Assembly (NCBI GenBank): GCA_016842085.1
Contig: JAEVEX010000049.1
Span: 62,001-126,000 of the forward strand
DNA length: 64,000 nt
Direction: 5' to 3'
Source of the DNA: Candidatus Thermoflexus tengchongensis
GTDB lineage: Bacteria; Chloroflexota; Anaerolineae; Thermoflexales; Thermoflexaceae
Shown: positions 4,895-63,917 of the stretch, one piece after another
How positions within the stretch are numbered: the first letter of the stretch is position 1
Layout: each line of letters begins with the position of its first letter
Made by a program: the position numbers and the translations under genes
Notes under the pieces: generated by a model
Database searches by the model: none
Told to the model about the DNA's origin: nothing
What the model saw: only the letters and a program-made list of their open reading frames with translations

Positions 4895-5452
4895 CTACCC
4901 CAGGATCTCCTCGATCGCTACCGTGAGCCCGGGGATCAGGATGGGGCTTACGGTCTCACCCCGGCGAGCGATGCGTCGGCCCCGATAGCCCTCGGGGCCG
5001 GGCTGGCGGTAGATCTCGACGTGTTCTTCGGTGAGGTCCACGAGCCAGGCCTCGGGGATGCCGTGGCGGGCGTAGAGGGGGATCTTGACCGTGCGGTCGT
5101 AGTCGGCGGAGGTTTCGGCCACCTCCACGATGAGGAGGACGTCCTCCGGCCCCGGGTGGGCGGAGGCGTAAAAATCGGGGCGGTAGCGAAGCAGCGCTAC
5201 GTCCGGTTGCGGCTCGGAGTGCGGCCCCAGGCGGACCGGGTTCTGAACCCAAACAATGCCCCACCCTCCGATTCGGGAGAGCAGAGCGGTGAGTCGGGCG
5301 ACTGCCGCCGCGTGTCGGCTTCCGATGGGGCTCATGGCGATGAGCTCTCCCTCGATGAGTTCGACGCGGTCGTCCTCGGAGAGGATGCCGGCCTCGGCCA
5401 TTCGATGGTATTCCTCCACGGTGAACAGGCGTCGCTGCACCTGGACGCTCAT
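4895..5452 (-). CDS. Uma2 family endonuclease (copy 3 of tandem)
   Basis: This 185-residue protein has the Uma2 (DUF820) restriction-endonuclease-like fold. It shows the N-terminal 'FTVEEYHRMAEAGILSEDDR', then 'VELIEGELIAMSPIGSRH'. The PD-(D/E)xK elements are 'QPDVALLR', 'LLIVEVAETSADYDRTVK' and 'YARHGIPEAWLVDL'. It is last of three near-identical paralogues on the minus strand, separated by 18 bp from its neighbour, so they are probably co-transcribed. Residues about 49-80 differ from the siblings, whereas the first 48 and the catalytic core are almost identical. Uma2 proteins are common in cyanobacteria and Chloroflexota, and their biological role is not established. Confidence 0.88.
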   Translation of the reverse strand: MSVQVQRRLFTVEEYHRMAEAGILSEDDRVELIEGELIAMSPIGSRHAAAVARLTALLSRIGGWGIVWVQNPVRLGPHSEPQPDVALLRYRPDFYASAHPGPEDVLLIVEVAETSADYDRTVKIPLYARHGIPEAWLVDLTEEHVEIYRQPGPEGYRGRRIARRGETVSPILIPGLTVAIEEILG

Positions 5453-5470
5453 CGTTCGCCTCCCGATGTT

Positions 5471-6031
5471 CTATCCCAGGATATCCTCCACCGCGATGGT
5501 CAGCTCGGGCAGGGCGGTGGGGCGGAGCGTTTGGCCGCGCCGGGCGGTTCGGGTTTCCCGGTAGCCTTCCGGGCCGGGCTGGCGGTAGATCTCGATGTGT
5601 TCTTCAGTGAGGTCCACAAGCCAGGCCTCGGGGATGCCGTGGCGGGCGTAGAGGGGGATCTTGACGGCCCGGTCGTAGTCGGCGGAGGTTTCGGCCACCT
5701 CCACGATGAGGAGGACGTCCTCCGGCCCCGGGTGGGCGGAGGCGTAGAAATCGGGGCGGTAGCGGAGCAGCGTTAGATCCGGCTGGGGTTCGGAGTGCGC
5801 GCTGAGGCGAAGCGGGTTCTGAACCCGGACGATGATGGGCTCACGCGTGTGCCGGGAGAACAGGTAATTCAGCCGGTCCACAACGCCCGCGTGTCGGCTT
5901 CCGATGGGGCTCATGGCGATGAGCTCTCCCTCGATGAGTTCGACGCGGTCATCCTCGGAGAGGATGCCGGCCTCGGCCATTCGATGGTATTCCTCCACGG
6001 TGAACAGGCGCCGCTGCACCTGGACGCTCAT
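5471..6031 (-). CDS. Uma2 family endonuclease (copy 2 of tandem)
   Basis: This 186-residue middle member of the Uma2 triplet begins with the same 'MSVQVQRRLFTVEEYHRMAE' as the others. It keeps the catalytic elements 'QPDLTLLR', 'VLLIVEVAETSADYDRAVK' and 'ARHGIPEAWLVDLTEEH'. Its variable segment (about 49-80) contains 'LNYLFSRHTREPIIVRVQ', unlike either neighbour. The 18-bp gaps on both sides share the string ATGTTCTATCCCAG, which fits tandem duplication of a whole gene plus spacer. Function beyond a nuclease fold is unknown. Confidence 0.88.
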   Translation of the reverse strand: MSVQVQRRLFTVEEYHRMAEAGILSEDDRVELIEGELIAMSPIGSRHAGVVDRLNYLFSRHTREPIIVRVQNPLRLSAHSEPQPDLTLLRYRPDFYASAHPGPEDVLLIVEVAETSADYDRAVKIPLYARHGIPEAWLVDLTEEHIEIYRQPGPEGYRETRTARRGQTLRPTALPELTIAVEDILG

Positions 6032-6049
6032 CCCTGGCCTCCAGATGTT

Positions 6050-6610
6050 CTATCCCAGGATATCCTCCACGGCGATCGTCAGCCCGGGCAGGGCGATGGG
6101 GTGGAGCGTTTCGCCGCGCCGGGCGGTTCGGGTTTCCCGGTAGCCCTGGGGGGAGGGCTGGCGGTAGATCTCGATGTGTTCTTCAGTGAGGTCCACGAGC
6201 CAGGCTTCGGGGATGCCGTGGCGGGCGTAGAGGGGGATCTTGACCGTGCGGTCGTAGTCGGCGGAGGTCTCGGCCACCTCCACGATGAGGAGGACATCCT
6301 CCGGCCCCGGGTGGGCGGAGGCATAGAAATCCGGGCGATGGCGGAGCAGGGCCACATCGGGCTGCGGCTCCGAATGCCGCCCCAGGCGGATGGGATCCTG
6401 AGCGCTGACGATGGCTCGCTCCCCCACGGCTCGATCCAGGAGCCGGACGAGGCGCTTCACGCAGGCGGCGTGACGGCTGCCGATGGGGCTCATGGCGATG
6501 AGTTCTCCTTCGATGAGCTCGATACGATCGTCTTCGGAGAGGATGCCGGCCTCGGCCATTCGATGGTATTCTTCCACGGTGAACAGGCGCCGCTGCACCT
6601 GAACGCTCAT
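6050..6610 (-). CDS. Uma2 family endonuclease (copy 1 of tandem)
   Basis: This is the promoter-proximal member of the triplet, 186 residues from the ATG at 6610. That start was chosen because all three copies then begin with the same MSVQVQRR sequence; the frame stays open 12 codons further upstream. Catalytic PD-(D/E)xK elements are present ('QPDVALLRHR', 'LLIVEVAETSADYDRTVK'). The variable middle (about 49-80) reads 'LVRLLDRAVGERAIVSAQ'. The 283 bp between this gene and the divergent oxidase gene must hold promoters for both, but I see no convincing -35/-10 pair. Confidence 0.88.
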   Translation of the reverse strand: MSVQVQRRLFTVEEYHRMAEAGILSEDDRIELIEGELIAMSPIGSRHAACVKRLVRLLDRAVGERAIVSAQDPIRLGRHSEPQPDVALLRHRPDFYASAHPGPEDVLLIVEVAETSADYDRTVKIPLYARHGIPEAWLVDLTEEHIEIYRQPSPQGYRETRTARRGETLHPIALPGLTIAVEDILG

Positions 6611-6893
6611 CCCCTGCCTCCCTGGACGCTGATCTGGAAAGGCCATGCGAAGCCCGGCTTGCTTTCAGATTAACACCGAACCGGGATCCGGCCAAGGGAT
6701 GGCTCTTTCCCGTCGGAAACAGAAAAAACCAAACCATGGATGAGATCTGGACCATCTCCGGGATCTGCCATATCTTTGAAGGGGAGTGATTTTCAGCCTC
6801 CATCCGGCTCGAGCGGGAAGACTCTCCGGGCAGGGTGGAGGTCAGCCCCGTGAGCCATGTATCTTTCCACATTGCCTGGTAGGGGGAAGCGCC

Positions 6894-9194: not shown

Positions 9195-9197
9195 AAC

Positions 9198-9225
9198 GTA
9201 GGGCAACTGCTTGCAGTTGCCCTAC
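9198..9225. repeat. 28-nt dispersed palindrome, copy 1
   Basis: GTAGGGCAACTG, a CTTG loop and the perfect reverse complement form a 12-bp stem. It lies 4 bp after the molybdopterin-subunit stop and before the aldehyde dehydrogenase. Identical 28-mers occur at 40119 and 63815. There is no T-run after it, so it is not a typical intrinsic terminator. Confidence 0.9.
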
Positions 9226-9283
9226 CCCTTCCCCGGGGTTTGAACCCGGCGGCGGATACCCTATCTTCCTGCAGGAGGGGCGT

Positions 9284-40116: not shown

Positions 40117-40148
40117 CGGTAGGGCAACTGCTTGCAGTTGCCCTACCG
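40117..40148. repeat. 28-nt dispersed palindrome, copy 2
   Basis: The same GTAGGGCAACTG/CTTG/complement palindrome as at 9198, here extended to a 14-bp stem by flanking CG/CG bases. It lies between ygeY and ygeW, 6 bp after the ygeY stop. A TATAAT at 40157 follows, so the element may border a second promoter. Confidence 0.9.
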
Positions 40149-40206
40149 CGAGCTTCTATAATTCAAACGCGATGCGATCATCATAAAATCTCTCAGGAGG
40201 CCTCTC

Positions 40207-47426: not shown

Positions 47427-49340
47427 ATGGCGGTGAAGGAGCTGATCGCGGACATCCGTCATCTCAGCGGCGAGGTGTATTATCCTTCCCCCGAGGTCCT
47501 GGAGCGCGCTTACATCAAAGATTACCCCTCCCTTTATCAGCGGGCGATGCAGGACCTGGAGGCCTTCTGGGCCGAGCGCGCCGAGGAGCTGGACTGGTTC
47601 CAGAAATGGGACCGCGTTCTGGATGACAGCGGGCGGCCCTTCTACAAGTGGTTCGTGGGCGGCAAGATCAATATCTGCTATAACGCCGTGGACCGCCACA
47701 TGAAGACCTGGCGCAAGAACAAGGTAGCCCTCTACTGGGAATCGGAGAACGGGGAACGCCGGGTTCTCAGCTATTATGATCTTTACAAAGAAGTCAACCG
47801 CTTCGCCAACGTCCTGAAAGCCCTGGGCGTGCGCAAGGGCGATCGGGTGACCATCTACATGCCCCGTATCCCCGAACTGCCCATCGCCATGCTGGCCTGC
47901 GCCCGCATCGGGGCGATCCACAGCGTGGTCTTCGCCGGCTTCTCGGTGGAAGCCCTCCACACCCGCATCGAGGATTCCAAGTCCCGCCTGGTGATCACCG
48001 CCGACGGCGGATACATGAACGGACGCATCGTGGAGACCAAGCGCACGGTCGATGAGGCTGTCCGGCGCGCTCCTTCCGTGGAGCATGTGCTGGTGGTCCG
48101 CCGCACCCGCCACGAGGTGCCGATGGAGCCCGGGCGGGATTATTTCTACGATGAGCTGGCGCGGCTCCCCTTCGCCCAAGGCGAGTGCCCGGTGGAGGTC
48201 ACCGACGCGGAGGATCCCCTCTATATCCTCTACACCTCCGGCACCACCGGCGCCCCCAAGGGCCAGGTCCACGTGCACGGGGGCTACGCGGTTTTCATCT
48301 ACACCACGATGAAGTGGGTCTTCGACATCAAGGACGACGATATCTGGTGGTGCACGGCGGATCCGGGATGGGTAACCGGGCATTCTTATATTGTCTACGC
48401 CCCGCTGATGCTGGGGGCCACCAGCGTGATGTATGAAGGGGCGCCGACGTATCCCTATCCGGATCGCTGGTGGAGCATTGTGGAAAAATACGGGGTGACG
48501 GTGCTCTACACCACCCCCACGGCGATCCGGGGGTTGATGCGCTTCGGGGATGAATGGCCCAACCGGCGCAACCTCTCCTCCCTGCGCCTGCTGGGCACGG
48601 TGGGCGAGCCGATCAACCCGGAGGCCTGGCGCTGGTATTACCGGGTGATCGGGAAGGAGCGCTGCCCGATTATGGACACCTGGTGGATGACGGAGACCGG
48701 GGGCTTCATGATCACCCCCATGCCCTGCATCCCCCTCAAGCCCGGCTCGGCGACCCTCCCCTTCCCGGGCATCCGGGCGGATGTGGTGGATGAGAACGGC
48801 AATTCCTGCCCGCCCGGGGTGGAGGGCTACCTGGTGATCCAGACGCCGTGGCCCGGGATGACCCGCACCCTCTACGGCGACCCTGAGCGCTATGTGAAGA
48901 CCTACTGGTCGAAGTATCCCGGCTGGTTCTTCACCGGCGATTCCGCCCGGCGGGATGAGGACGGCTACTTCTACATCATCGGGCGGGTGGACGATGTGCT
49001 CAAGGTGAGCGGATACCGGCTGGGGACGGCGGAGATCGAGTCGGCGCTGGTCGCTCATCCAGCAGTGGCCGAAGCGGCGGCCATCGGCCTGCCCCACGAG
49101 GTGAAGGGCGAGGGGATCCACTGCTATGTGATCCTCAAGGCGGGCTACAGCCCGAGCGATGCCCTGGCTGAGGAGCTCCGTCAGCACGTGGCCCAGCTGA
49201 TCGGCCCCATCGCCCGACCGGAGGCCATTCACTTTGTGGACAAGCTCCCCAAGACCCGGTCGGGGAAGATCATGCGCCGGGTGCTGCGGGCCCGCGCCCT
49301 GGGCCTGCCGGAGGGGGATCTCTCCACGCTGGAGGAGTGA
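47427..49340 (+). CDS. acs: Acetyl-CoA synthetase
   Basis: This 637-residue AMP-forming ligase converts acetate, ATP and CoA to acetyl-CoA. Visible are '[20 protein letters not shown]', the P-loop '[20 protein letters not shown]', '[20 protein letters not shown]', '[18 protein letters not shown]' (acyl site), '[20 protein letters not shown]' and '[20 protein letters not shown]'. The acylation Lys motif is '[14 protein letters not shown]'. Start fixed by GAGGAGG. The long first-helix opening fits the bacterial Acs family. A terminator and the hairpin array follow. Confidence 0.95.
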
Positions 49341-49377: not shown

Positions 49378-49418
49378 GGGGGGTCGGCGGCGCATCGGCC
49401 GACCCCCCCGCTTTTTTC
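49378..49418 (+). terminator. Intrinsic terminator of acs
   Basis: GGGGGGTCGGC and its complement form an 11-bp stem around a 9-nt loop, followed by GCTTTTTT. It lies 37 bp after the acs stop and before the hairpin array. Confidence 0.88.
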
Positions 49419-49446
49419 CGGCTGGCACGGATCCCCGATCTCTGGC

Positions 49447-50129
49447 GCCGATGGAAATCGGCCTTGCGAGGCGCTTTGCGCCGGGCGTCGGCCTGCGCCG
49501 ACGCGGAAGGCGTTTTCAGCCGGCGGAGGCCGGCTGCCTCTCACGCCGATTGAAATCGGCCTTCATGGGCGCTTTCGCGCCCCATGTCGGCCTTCGCCGA
49601 CACGAAATGCTTTCTGGCCGGCGGAGGCCGGCCATGGGCCGGAGGCCTTTTGAGGTCGAATTCATTCGACGCCCTCCGCGCCGGGCATCGACGAGTGCGC
49701 CGATGGAAATTGGCCTCGTGAGGCGCTTTGCGCCGGGCGTCGGCCTTCGCCGACGCGAAATGCTTTCTGGCCGGCGGAGGCCGGCCATCGGCCGGAGGCC
49801 TTTTGAGGTCGAATTCATTCGACGCCCTCCGCGCCGGGCATCGACGAGTGCGCCGATGGAAATTGGCCTCGTGAGGCGCTTTGCGCCGGGCGTCGGCCTT
49901 CGCCGACACGAAATGCTTTCTGGCCGGCGCCGGCCGGCCATTGGCCGAAGGCCTTTGAGGTCGAATTCATTCGACGCCCTCCGCGCCGGGCATCGGCCTC
50001 TCACGCCGATTGAAATCGGCCTTCATGGGCGCTTTGCGCCGGGCGTCGGCCTTCGCCGACGCGAAAAGGCTTTTCGGCCGGCGCAGGCCGGCCATTGGCC
50101 GAAGGCCTTTGAGGTCGAATTCGTTCGAC
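49447..50129. repeat. Tandem array of hairpins, period about 153 bp
   Basis: This approximately 680-bp intergenic block sits between convergent genes. The palindrome GTCGGCCTTCGCCGAC recurs at 49586, 49739, 49892 and 50045 (exactly 153 bp apart), with a variant at 49487 (99 bp before). Each unit also has GGCGC-TTT-GCGCC, TGGCCGGC-GGAG-GCCGGCCA, GTCGAAT-TC-ATTCGAC and ATCGG-type stems, so four or five stems per unit. The last stem ends 1 bp before the stop codon of the next gene. Frames stay open because 153 and 99 are multiples of three, not because of coding. Confidence 0.88.
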
Positions 50130-50130
50130 T

Positions 50131-51621
50131 TCAGCGGGGCTCGCCCCACCACACCTCGAGGAGCGGGCGGCCCTCTGTGTTCCAGTCCTCCGTATCCGAA
50201 GACACGAAGTATTTGCCGCTGTGATAGGCCCCATCGGCGCTGTAAAGGATCAGACGCAGCGGCTCGCCCCGGGCATAGGCCCGGGCTACCGCATACGAGA
50301 CATCCCAGACCCGGGGGACGCCGGGCCAGCCCGGCCAGTCCATGAGGGGATCCACCCACGTGCCGCCGATGTTCTCCCGGGCCAGCGGCGCGTTGTTCCA
50401 CGTGATGGTCTCTTCATCCCAGTCCCCGGAGGCGATCAGCACCTGGATCCATGAGGGCTGCGCCTGGCCAGGTGCTCCGGCGTTGCCGAATTGATGCAGG
50501 GTCAATGTGGCCGAAAGGATCACCTGGCCCGGCGGGATCGCATCCAGGGGAAAGGTCACATAGTATTTGGCGAAGCACGGCCAGTCGGCGACATCGGACT
50601 GGTTCTGGATGTTGAGATCGGGCGCGTGGTTGTCGTTGCGATTGCCCCATTCGTTCCAGATCTCGTATTCGTCGCCAGGGCACTGGCGCGCGGTGATCCC
50701 CCCCACGTTGGCGTCTGGGACCAGCGGGCTGTTTCGGGTGGGGCGGCGGATCCGAACGTAGCCGGTCGGTGTGCCTTCGGCGCGGTAGACAGGAAGCCCG
50801 AACTGCAGGAATCCCCAGCACGCCGGGCTTTCCGGAGAAGCGGCGGGCGGCCAGGAGGTATCGCCGATAGGGGGATCGGTGGGGGAATCCCGGTCGTGGA
50901 CCTGGATGGCCAGCCGCCAGCGGGTGCCCTCGGGGGGCGCGGTGGCCAGGCCCAGGCTGGCGAAGGGGATGGTGAAACCCATGGCCCATCCCCGGTCGCT
51001 TTCGCGATCGTTGTTGAGGGCGTTCCCGCGCCAGCCCGGAACGGCCTGGAAGGGCGGGTCGGCTGGCTGCCAGCCGGAGGCGCTTCCCCGATAAGCGGCG
51101 CGCCGGTCAGGGCTGGGCTCGCCGTAGAGCTGGGCGACGAAGCGCCATGATGTCGGGGAAAGCGTGCCGCCTCCCGACGTATCCAGCAGCACCGTCGCGG
51201 CGTCCCATTGCGTCAGCGTCTGGGGTGCTGGATTCTCATCATACCAGAGGTGACGATCGAAGACGGCGAGGTAGATATAGAGCTCCTGCTCGTTATAGCC
51301 CACGCGGATATCCGTGTAATTTCGCGTGGGGGAAACCTGGCCGAACCAGGCGATGGCGGTCTGCTCGAAGGGGATGGGGCCTTTGAAACGAGGGGCGTTG
51401 ATACGCGGTAGCGTCTCCGGGGCGCATGGTTTCCCGCTGGCGTGGGTGGGCGCCGGCTCCGGAGGTGTGGAAGGAATCGGCGTCCCTTCGGCGAGGCGCG
51501 CGGACGGCCGCGGGGGGCGACCGGAGCAGGCGGCGGGAAGGAGCAACATCAGCGTCACCAGATTCCGCAACGCCATCCCTCTGATGGGACCCACATGAGC
51601 CCTCCGGAGATTGGCCGCCAT
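50131..51621 (-). CDS. Lipoprotein with CBM9-like and DNRLRE-like domains
   Basis: This 496-residue protein starts at ATG 51621, with GGAGGAGGGG upstream; ATG 51576 is the alternative. The lipobox 'LMLLLPAACSG' is followed by a Pro/Ser/Thr linker. Residues about 85-265 have 'YTDIRVGYNEQELYIYLAVF' and 'GWAMGFTIPFASLGLATAPP', the pattern of CBM9-type sugar-binding sandwiches. Residues about 320-495 have 'CFAKYYVTFPLDAIPPG', 'ATLTLHQFGNAG', 'ASGDWDEETITWNNAP' and 'DVSYAVARAYARGEPLRLIL', typical of DNRLRE domains. It is anchored on the outer face of the membrane, probably for carbohydrate or surface binding. No catalytic domain is seen. Confidence 0.82.
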   Translation of the reverse strand: MAANLRRAHVGPIRGMALRNLVTLMLLLPAACSGRPPRPSARLAEGTPIPSTPPEPAPTHASGKPCAPETLPRINAPRFKGPIPFEQTAIAWFGQVSPTRNYTDIRVGYNEQELYIYLAVFDRHLWYDENPAPQTLTQWDAATVLLDTSGGGTLSPTSWRFVAQLYGEPSPDRRAAYRGSASGWQPADPPFQAVPGWRGNALNNDRESDRGWAMGFTIPFASLGLATAPPEGTRWRLAIQVHDRDSPTDPPIGDTSWPPAASPESPACWGFLQFGLPVYRAEGTPTGYVRIRRPTRNSPLVPDANVGGITARQCPGDEYEIWNEWGNRNDNHAPDLNIQNQSDVADWPCFAKYYVTFPLDAIPPGQVILSATLTLHQFGNAGAPGQAQPSWIQVLIASGDWDEETITWNNAPLARENIGGTWVDPLMDWPGWPGVPRVWDVSYAVARAYARGEPLRLILYSADGAYHSGKYFVSSDTEDWNTEGRPLLEVWWGEPR

Positions 51622-63670: not shown

Positions 63671-63814
63671 AGGCCTCACCTCCTTTCGGTGGTGGTCTTG
63701 CCTGCACCCCTGGGGTTTTTCCAGCCTTCATCGTAGGCGGGAGGCCTTAGAGGAGCGTTAGCAGGAGATAAAAGATCCGCAAACGTTGAGTTAAAGGATC
63801 GTCAGCAGCTCCCC

Positions 63815-63842
63815 GTAGGGCAACTGCTTGCAGTTGCCCTAC
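63815..63842. repeat. 28-nt dispersed palindrome, copy 3
   Basis: Identical to the copy at 9198. It lies in the 250-bp gap between the Hsp20 gene and the last, minus-strand gene. Confidence 0.9.
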
Positions 63843-63917
63843 GCCAGGAATCCGGAATCAGGTCAGCTCCGTGGGCCCCATCCGGAGTTCAGTGGAGGAG
63901 CTCCCGCGGGGTGCTCC

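Follow-up and report, generated by a model that had tools for sequence, protein, structure and literature searches.

The window analyzed here, a 64,000-nucleotide stretch of contig C20 in the 3.89-Mb, 95% complete assembly of Candidatus Thermoflexus tengchongensis, carries an acetyl-CoA synthetase-like gene with AMP-binding and ACAS_N domains (positions 47427–49340, plus strand) that converges on a gene with a CBM96-like domain (50131–51621, minus strand). The former ends in an intrinsic terminator (49378–49416, plus strand), which we read directly from the sequence as a stem at approximately 49378–49408 (GGGGGGTCGGC...GCCGACCCCCC) followed by a T run to 49416, and which does not figure in our hairpin list, a scan limited to loops of up to 8 nt. 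Outside this terminator lies a hairpin array of five head-to-tail units in A-to-F orientation (49446–50130, plus strand). An earlier note had described an array with a period of 153 bp between convergent genes, and this description is borne out: the units are in register, with start-to-start distances of 99, 153, 153 and 153 bp, and TRF reports a period of 153, 3.8 copies and 91% matches. Of the limits given there, the right end does abut the opposite gene's stop codon, whereas 30 bp separate the terminator from the array on the other side.

Unit 1 (49446–49544, 99 bp) is shortened to hairpins A, B, C and D, with a TCTCAC joint to the next A; units 2 (49545–49697, 153 bp), 3 (49698–49850) and 4 (49851–50003) each hold the full set A–F plus a linker, and unit 5 (50004–50130), likewise complete, ends at the convergent gene's stop codon. 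All units lie on the plus strand, as do the hairpins of unit 5, which are A (GCCGATTGAAATCGGC, 50005–50020; 7 bp, 2-nt loop), B (GGCGCTTTGCGCC, 50028–50040; 5 bp, 3-nt loop), C (GCGTCGGCCTTCGCCGACGC, 50043–50062; 8 bp, 4-nt loop), D (GGCCGGCGCAGGCCGGCC, 50076–50093; 7 bp, 4-nt loop), E (GGCCGAAGGCC, 50097–50107; 4 bp, 3-nt loop) and F (GTCGAATTCGTTCGAC, 50114–50129; 6 bp). The four or five stems per unit counted previously must be corrected to six for a full unit, and only unit 1 is reduced to A–D. Nor does the recurrent palindrome, GTCGAATTCRTTCGAC of hairpin F, return exactly every 153 bp as had been claimed: it is found at 49655, 49808, 49960 and 50114, at spacings of 153, 152 and 154 bp, with none expected in shuffles. 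Folded as single-stranded DNA, the array reaches −230.8 kcal/mol, compared with −183.3 ± 5.7 kcal/mol for dinucleotide shuffles (z = −8.35). A protein-coding repeat was considered, as reading frames are open across the array (295 aa), but was rejected because unit spacings elsewhere (154 and 155 in L035) are not multiples of three. In a separate part of the window (4895–6731), a segment of about 578 bp occurs in three tandem copies that are 85–90% alike over 300 bp.

Mirror plan and compensatory changes

The consensus of the left half of the unit reads GCCGAT(T)-GA-(A)ATCGGC for hairpin A, GGCGC-TTN-GCGCC for B and GTCGGC-CTNC-GCCGAC for C; after a spacer follow GGCCGGC-GNRG-GCCGGCC for D, GGCC-GAA-GGCC for E and GTCGAA-TTCA-TTCGAC for F, which mirror C, B and A, respectively, in inverted form. 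The full unit is thus an inverted dimer of a three-hairpin half unit. Indeed, comparison of the left half with the reverse complement of the right yields a mean score of 28.7; the direct orientation scores 15.4, and the best wrong order of hairpins averages 25.0, with the true order scoring higher in 44 of the 68 units and tying in 9. The underlying loop plan of 2-3-4 nt, spacer, 4-3-2 nt recurs in the units of other genomes with different stem sequences, although single units depart from it, for example one of G248 and those with 4-nt loops in E of G239 and in both B and E of G333.

Across the 68 units, 97.6% of cells are paired and changes occur on both sides in 13 of 36 base pairs; none of 500 shuffles reaches the observed percentage paired, number of pairs or covariation score, and shifting the partner by 1–3 columns abolishes the covariation signal. 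Paired (double) substitutions in the stems are species-specific: of the full units, 65 of 75 in the window's own genome have D arms GGCCGGC/GCCGGCC, whereas 87 of 95 in the relative G004 have GGTCGGC/GCCGACC; the F arms are GTCGAA/TTCGAC (66 of 75) and GCCGAA/TTCGGC (71 of 95), respectively, and G002 carries F arms GACGAC/GTCGGC. Among mismatched cells, GT, a wobble on the A-to-F strand, is found 31 times and AC, a wobble on the other strand, 34 times. As neither strand is favored, the data point to stems that act as DNA rather than RNA hairpins. An RNA, one of the possibilities raised in the earlier note, accordingly lacks support, and a search of Rfam returned no family near its gathering score.

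Covariation by itself is no proof of selection, since quasipalindrome correction by template switching could add to it. We also considered that the repeats might be inactive, their palindromes being kept solely by template switching and gene conversion, with neither selection nor a current transposase. Inverted loops of the kind that such exchanges leave do occur: hairpin C has the same stem in L058 (4006–4231) and L061 (236–702) with the 4-nt loop inverted (GAAG for CTTC), which is a trace of template switching or hairpin inversion. Furthermore, units resemble one another more within than between arrays (0.855 versus 0.781 in the own genome, 0.905 versus 0.836 in G004), and the candidate enzyme discussed below is missing from the own assembly. 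Mutational upkeep leaves unexplained, however, both the linkage of the repeats to Y1 genes in several bacterial families and the retention of a shared 2-3-4/4-3-2 plan through changed stems, and we regard it as very unlikely to be the whole explanation.

Genomic spread and placement of the arrays

A search for the stems elsewhere, which the earlier note had proposed, revealed similar arrays throughout the genome and in relatives. The own genome (G000) holds at least 35 arrays with about 142 unit or part-unit matches, totaling 15.6 kb or approximately 0.4% of the assembly, and the six-hairpin family is dispersed in arrays genus-wide in Thermoflexus; an exact match of 27 bases was obtained in Candidatus Thermoflexus japonica HRbin22. 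A covariance model built from the 68 units, with about 150 candidates scored per genome so that high counts are lower bounds, gave at least 142 matches in G000, at least 126 in G003, at least 151 in the single-contig G004 and at least 128 in G008, together with 79 in G006, 38 in G002, 13 in G001, 2 in G005 and none in G007. Diverged relatives of the repeat extend across the phylum, with matches in 22 of 301 sampled Chloroflexota genomes; a plasmid search found no homologs of the repeat DNA. Like arrays exist in G004 and, in further assemblies, at orthologous positions, which makes an assembly artifact, the refutation foreseen in the earlier note, unlikely for the family. The family accounts for a genome-wide repeat in this hot-spring lineage and is a source of spurious open reading frames.

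Each array keeps a single orientation throughout (70 of the 70 examined in G000 and G004). Part-units, such as A-B alone, E-F alone or B-F, are common, and the arrays are therefore mosaics. Nearly all are placed between predicted genes. A six-hairpin unit at L132 1500–1622 (G118) apparently lies inside a coding region, aminotransferase-like by inspection, and recalls the palindromic elements known to occur inside genes in Rickettsia.

Gene context, computed with a simple ORF scorer on the stretches around arrays, reveals a marked asymmetry. Of 65 arrays flanked by predicted genes on either side, 42 have their F end toward the 3′ end of a gene. A stop codon lies no more than 30 bp from the F end in 29 and a start codon in only 4, and the A end is near a stop codon in 13; the window array, in which F abuts the stop codon, conforms. 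Where the neighboring genes are in tandem, 29 arrays run opposite to them and 12 in the same orientation. Taken with the compensatory changes that conserve the stems, this placement might be indicative of host-maintained 3′-end or nucleoid elements that stabilize mRNA, end transcription or bind proteins or gyrase, roles that have been suggested for the BIMEs of E. coli. Against such a role, neither strand shows the wobble bias that would signal selection at the RNA level, the arrays carry no typical terminator tail in the hairpin scan (loops of up to 8 nt), and some are found between divergent genes or upstream of genes, or are missing at orthologous sites. We consequently give host maintenance a low, though appreciable, probability as the primary explanation; a host role is compatible with mobility and could be a secondary function.

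Comparison of orthologous sites reveals both presence with differing length and outright absence. Arrays L046, L049 and L032 have orthologs of different length in G004, as does L056 in G008, while at the site of L038 the G004 array is absent and about 13 bp separate the genes. Although presence and absence are clear, the flanks at empty sites are too diverged to define an insertion junction or target site. Several arrays, including that of the window, sit at synteny breaks, their flanking genes not being adjacent in G004; this fits recombination between arrays and could also result from draft assembly or general rearrangement. By eye, no orientation bias between replication arms is seen in the single-contig G004, where the minus strand is commoner on both arms. 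At about 360 kb in that genome (end of L100, start of L101), the site orthologous to the own-genome array L047 features other palindromic repeats (GTAGGAGGGGCTTCAGCCC / GCTGAAGCCGCTCCTAC). Genomes also share direct repeats that recur about every 67 bp (L042 7250–9001, L060 20–2250, L073 2980–8000, L218 16360–20000); these are probably CRISPR arrays.

A Y1 transposase among the repeats of relatives

A search with the Pfam Y1_Tnp model and its follow-up located genes for HUH/Y1 proteins of 140–150 aa between repeat units in three relatives: G004 (C1:1827597–1828028), G008 (C14:36652–37077) and G002 (C380:2119–2544). These loci differ, as the sequences flanking the G008 site correspond to about 0.51 Mb in G004, whose own gene lies at 1.83 Mb, and the G002 gene neighbors an ORF that is acyl-CoA dehydrogenase-like by inspection. 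In all three, the units on both sides share one orientation relative to the transposase gene. In at least four genomes of other families (G218, G044, G333 and G239) a Y1 gene of the same type likewise adjoins units built from that genome's own stems, and matches to the transposase protein occur in 51 of 400 genomes of the phylum. A TW[DQ]R motif is found in twelve proteins, which share one part of the tree with G098; all twelve display a Y---Q--HH motif, and His55, His57, Tyr115, Gln119, His122 and His123 are invariant among them. Perfect stems number 1–10 upstream of their genes and 1–11 downstream (the latter omitting one of the twelve, too near a contig end), compared with 0.2–1.4 in shuffles and 0–1 inside the gene; the hairpin excess is weak on one side in G406 (one stem upstream) and G044 (one downstream).

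The protein scores 58 and 67 bits with the NCBIfam IS200 model NF033573 (cut-off 55) and remains below threshold with the REP-associated tyrosine transposase model NF047646 (25 bits against a cut-off of 80); its solved-structure relatives, judged by sequence, are IS200/IS605-type transposases. Such scores, and the IS200/IS605 transposase name that NCBIfam assigns, invite the view that the gene belongs to an ordinary IS200-type insertion sequence with a preference for hairpin repeats that spread or persist by other means, and REP-targeting insertion sequences are described, for example ISPpu9 of Pseudomonas putida, in the available text of PMC8450116. This appears unlikely, as each Thermoflexus genome that has the gene has a single subclass-1.2-type copy with no ends of its own seen, the gene lies among units carrying the same genome's stems at three Thermoflexus loci and in other families, and the flanking units keep the same orientation relative to it in G004, G008 and G002.

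The motif itself suggests that the enzyme belongs to a published group. Y---Q--HH is the signature of TnpA-Y1 subclass 1.2, whose members, in the portions of the classification available (Quentin et al. 2018, PMC6006769), are low-copy, occur mostly in Cyanobacteria and Bacteroidetes, generally lack IS200-type terminal structures and have no REP partner named. The enzyme described here agrees with that account in its motif, short length, lack of a visible partner gene and proximity to IS200 TnpA; it differs in occurring in Chloroflexota among six-hairpin repeats. The accessible text of the same source also describes, for class 3 and subclass 2.6, non-GTAG "atypical secondary structures" that flank Y1 genes and recur in the genome; these enzymes differ in their Y motifs, the foot of class 3 is CnGA, and no six-hairpin mirror unit figures in that text. 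In our repeats the class 3 foot is absent or rare, CnGA occurring at just 7 of 83 copies of F and at none of 84 copies of A.

The canonical GTAG REP is excluded in the same manner: GT[AG]G within 0–2 nt 5′ of the hairpin foot is found at 8 of 83 copies of F and at none of 84 copies of A in the own genome, and at 1 of 114 and 1 of 132 in G004. Even so, a REP cluster remains the closest of the options that the earlier note had listed. Like REPIN/RAYT systems and BIMEs, the repeats are high-copy, mostly intergenic palindromes in tandem mosaic arrays, with an inverted dimer as the unit and a species-specific sequence, and in relatives, albeit not in the own assembly, a Y1 HUH gene is flanked by cognate repeats as in a REPtron. 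They depart from REPIN/RAYT in that the half unit comprises three hairpins where a REP has one, in the missing GT[AG]G foot and in a transposase that scores as IS200 rather than RAYT and carries Y---Q--HH; unlike in REPINs and BIMEs, all units within an array share one orientation. BOX elements of Streptococcus are modular as well, with internal modules in variable number; they have other modules and are not known to follow a mirror six-hairpin plan. What emerges is a REP-like repeat/transposase system whose likely substrate is built in a new way, from six mirror-ordered hairpins that keep their loop sizes; we found no earlier description of such a system. The literature, searched as open-access text and hence weak evidence on this point, gives no account of six-hairpin elements in Chloroflexota or of Thermoflexus repeats, and GTAG repeats in Chloroflexi receive only a general mention (PMC3733652).

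The own genome encodes two other Y1 genes, on contigs C77 and C97, each with its own repeat, so that Y1-repeat pairing is the rule in this genome. The RAYT-like C77 gene (NHVH) adjoins a GTAG palindrome (GTAGGGCAACTGC...GCAGTTGCCCTAC) with 54 matches per strand genome-wide at up to two mismatches; this GTAG-footed palindrome, GTAGGGCAACTGCTTGCAGTTGCCCTAC, is present in three exact copies in the window (9197–9228, 40118–40149 and 63814–63845). The C97 Y1_Tnp-domain gene (L080 1365–2200, YIHFNP motif) has long GGGAGTGCGGCGCCTTGGCGCCGC...GCACTCC repeats on both sides, a third repeat family of this genome, and a piece resembling them lies inside array L038. Because canonical GTAG REPs surround a different Y1 gene in the same genome, the six-hairpin family represents a separate system.

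Interpretation as mobile elements and wider implications

We favor, with fair confidence, a model in which non-autonomous, REPIN-like mobile elements, clustered in tandem, make up the array; they would be mobilized by a Y---Q--HH Y1 transposase that probably copies or moves the six-hairpin repeats, and then be amplified in tandem. The mobile unit would be the inverted dimer of a three-hairpin "REP" (A-B-C/C′-B′-A′). A stand-alone Y---Q--HH HUH/Y1 enzyme, encoded between repeat copies in relatives, would recognize hairpins folded in single-stranded DNA, which replication or transcription probably exposes. By cutting and rejoining the strand it could deliver units to further intergenic positions, frequently right after a stop codon, and the arrays would then grow or shrink as units are duplicated in tandem and recombine into mosaics. 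Cutting, mobilization and a single-stranded stage are what we infer from the known biochemistry of IS200/IS605 TnpA and of TnpAREP, which cuts and rejoins folded single-stranded DNA according to the available text of PMC8266576 and serves as the model for the mechanism; a target site and a function for the three-hairpin code we likewise propose by inference.

Several observations count against this model. The Y---Q--HH transposase is absent from the window's own assembly and from the repeat-rich G003 and G006; in the own genome, it may have been lost or may be hidden in an assembly gap between arrays. Its IS200 rather than RAYT score, the missing GTAG foot, the lack of a replication-arm bias and of a definable insertion junction, and the uneven hairpin excess in G406 and G044 weigh in the same direction.

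Should the model hold, the repeats would provide a likely substrate for those Y1 transposases that bear the subclass 1.2 motif, none having been named when the group was published. Chances are about even that Y---Q--HH Y1 enzymes constitute a further repeat-mobilizing class, with a composite substrate of mirrored three-hairpin halves, 2-3-4/4-3-2 loops and lineage-wise coevolution of stems and enzyme across Chloroflexota. With stems that vary by lineage and loops that stay fixed, such enzyme–repeat pairs would form a natural series on how HUH enzymes read folded DNA. The class possibly extends beyond Chloroflexota, as the Persicobacter plasmid gene below may illustrate.

Among subclass-1.2-type genes on plasmids, the two cyanobacterial matches examined are without the Y---Q--HH motif, and a Bernardetia gene has the motif with only two AT-rich stems, both downstream. 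On the Persicobacter plasmid CP012861.1 (Bacteroidota), similar hairpins, CGATGGGT...ACCCATCG, stand on either side of a Y1 gene with the motif YIQNQKFHH (L227 1380–1425 and 1996–2015).
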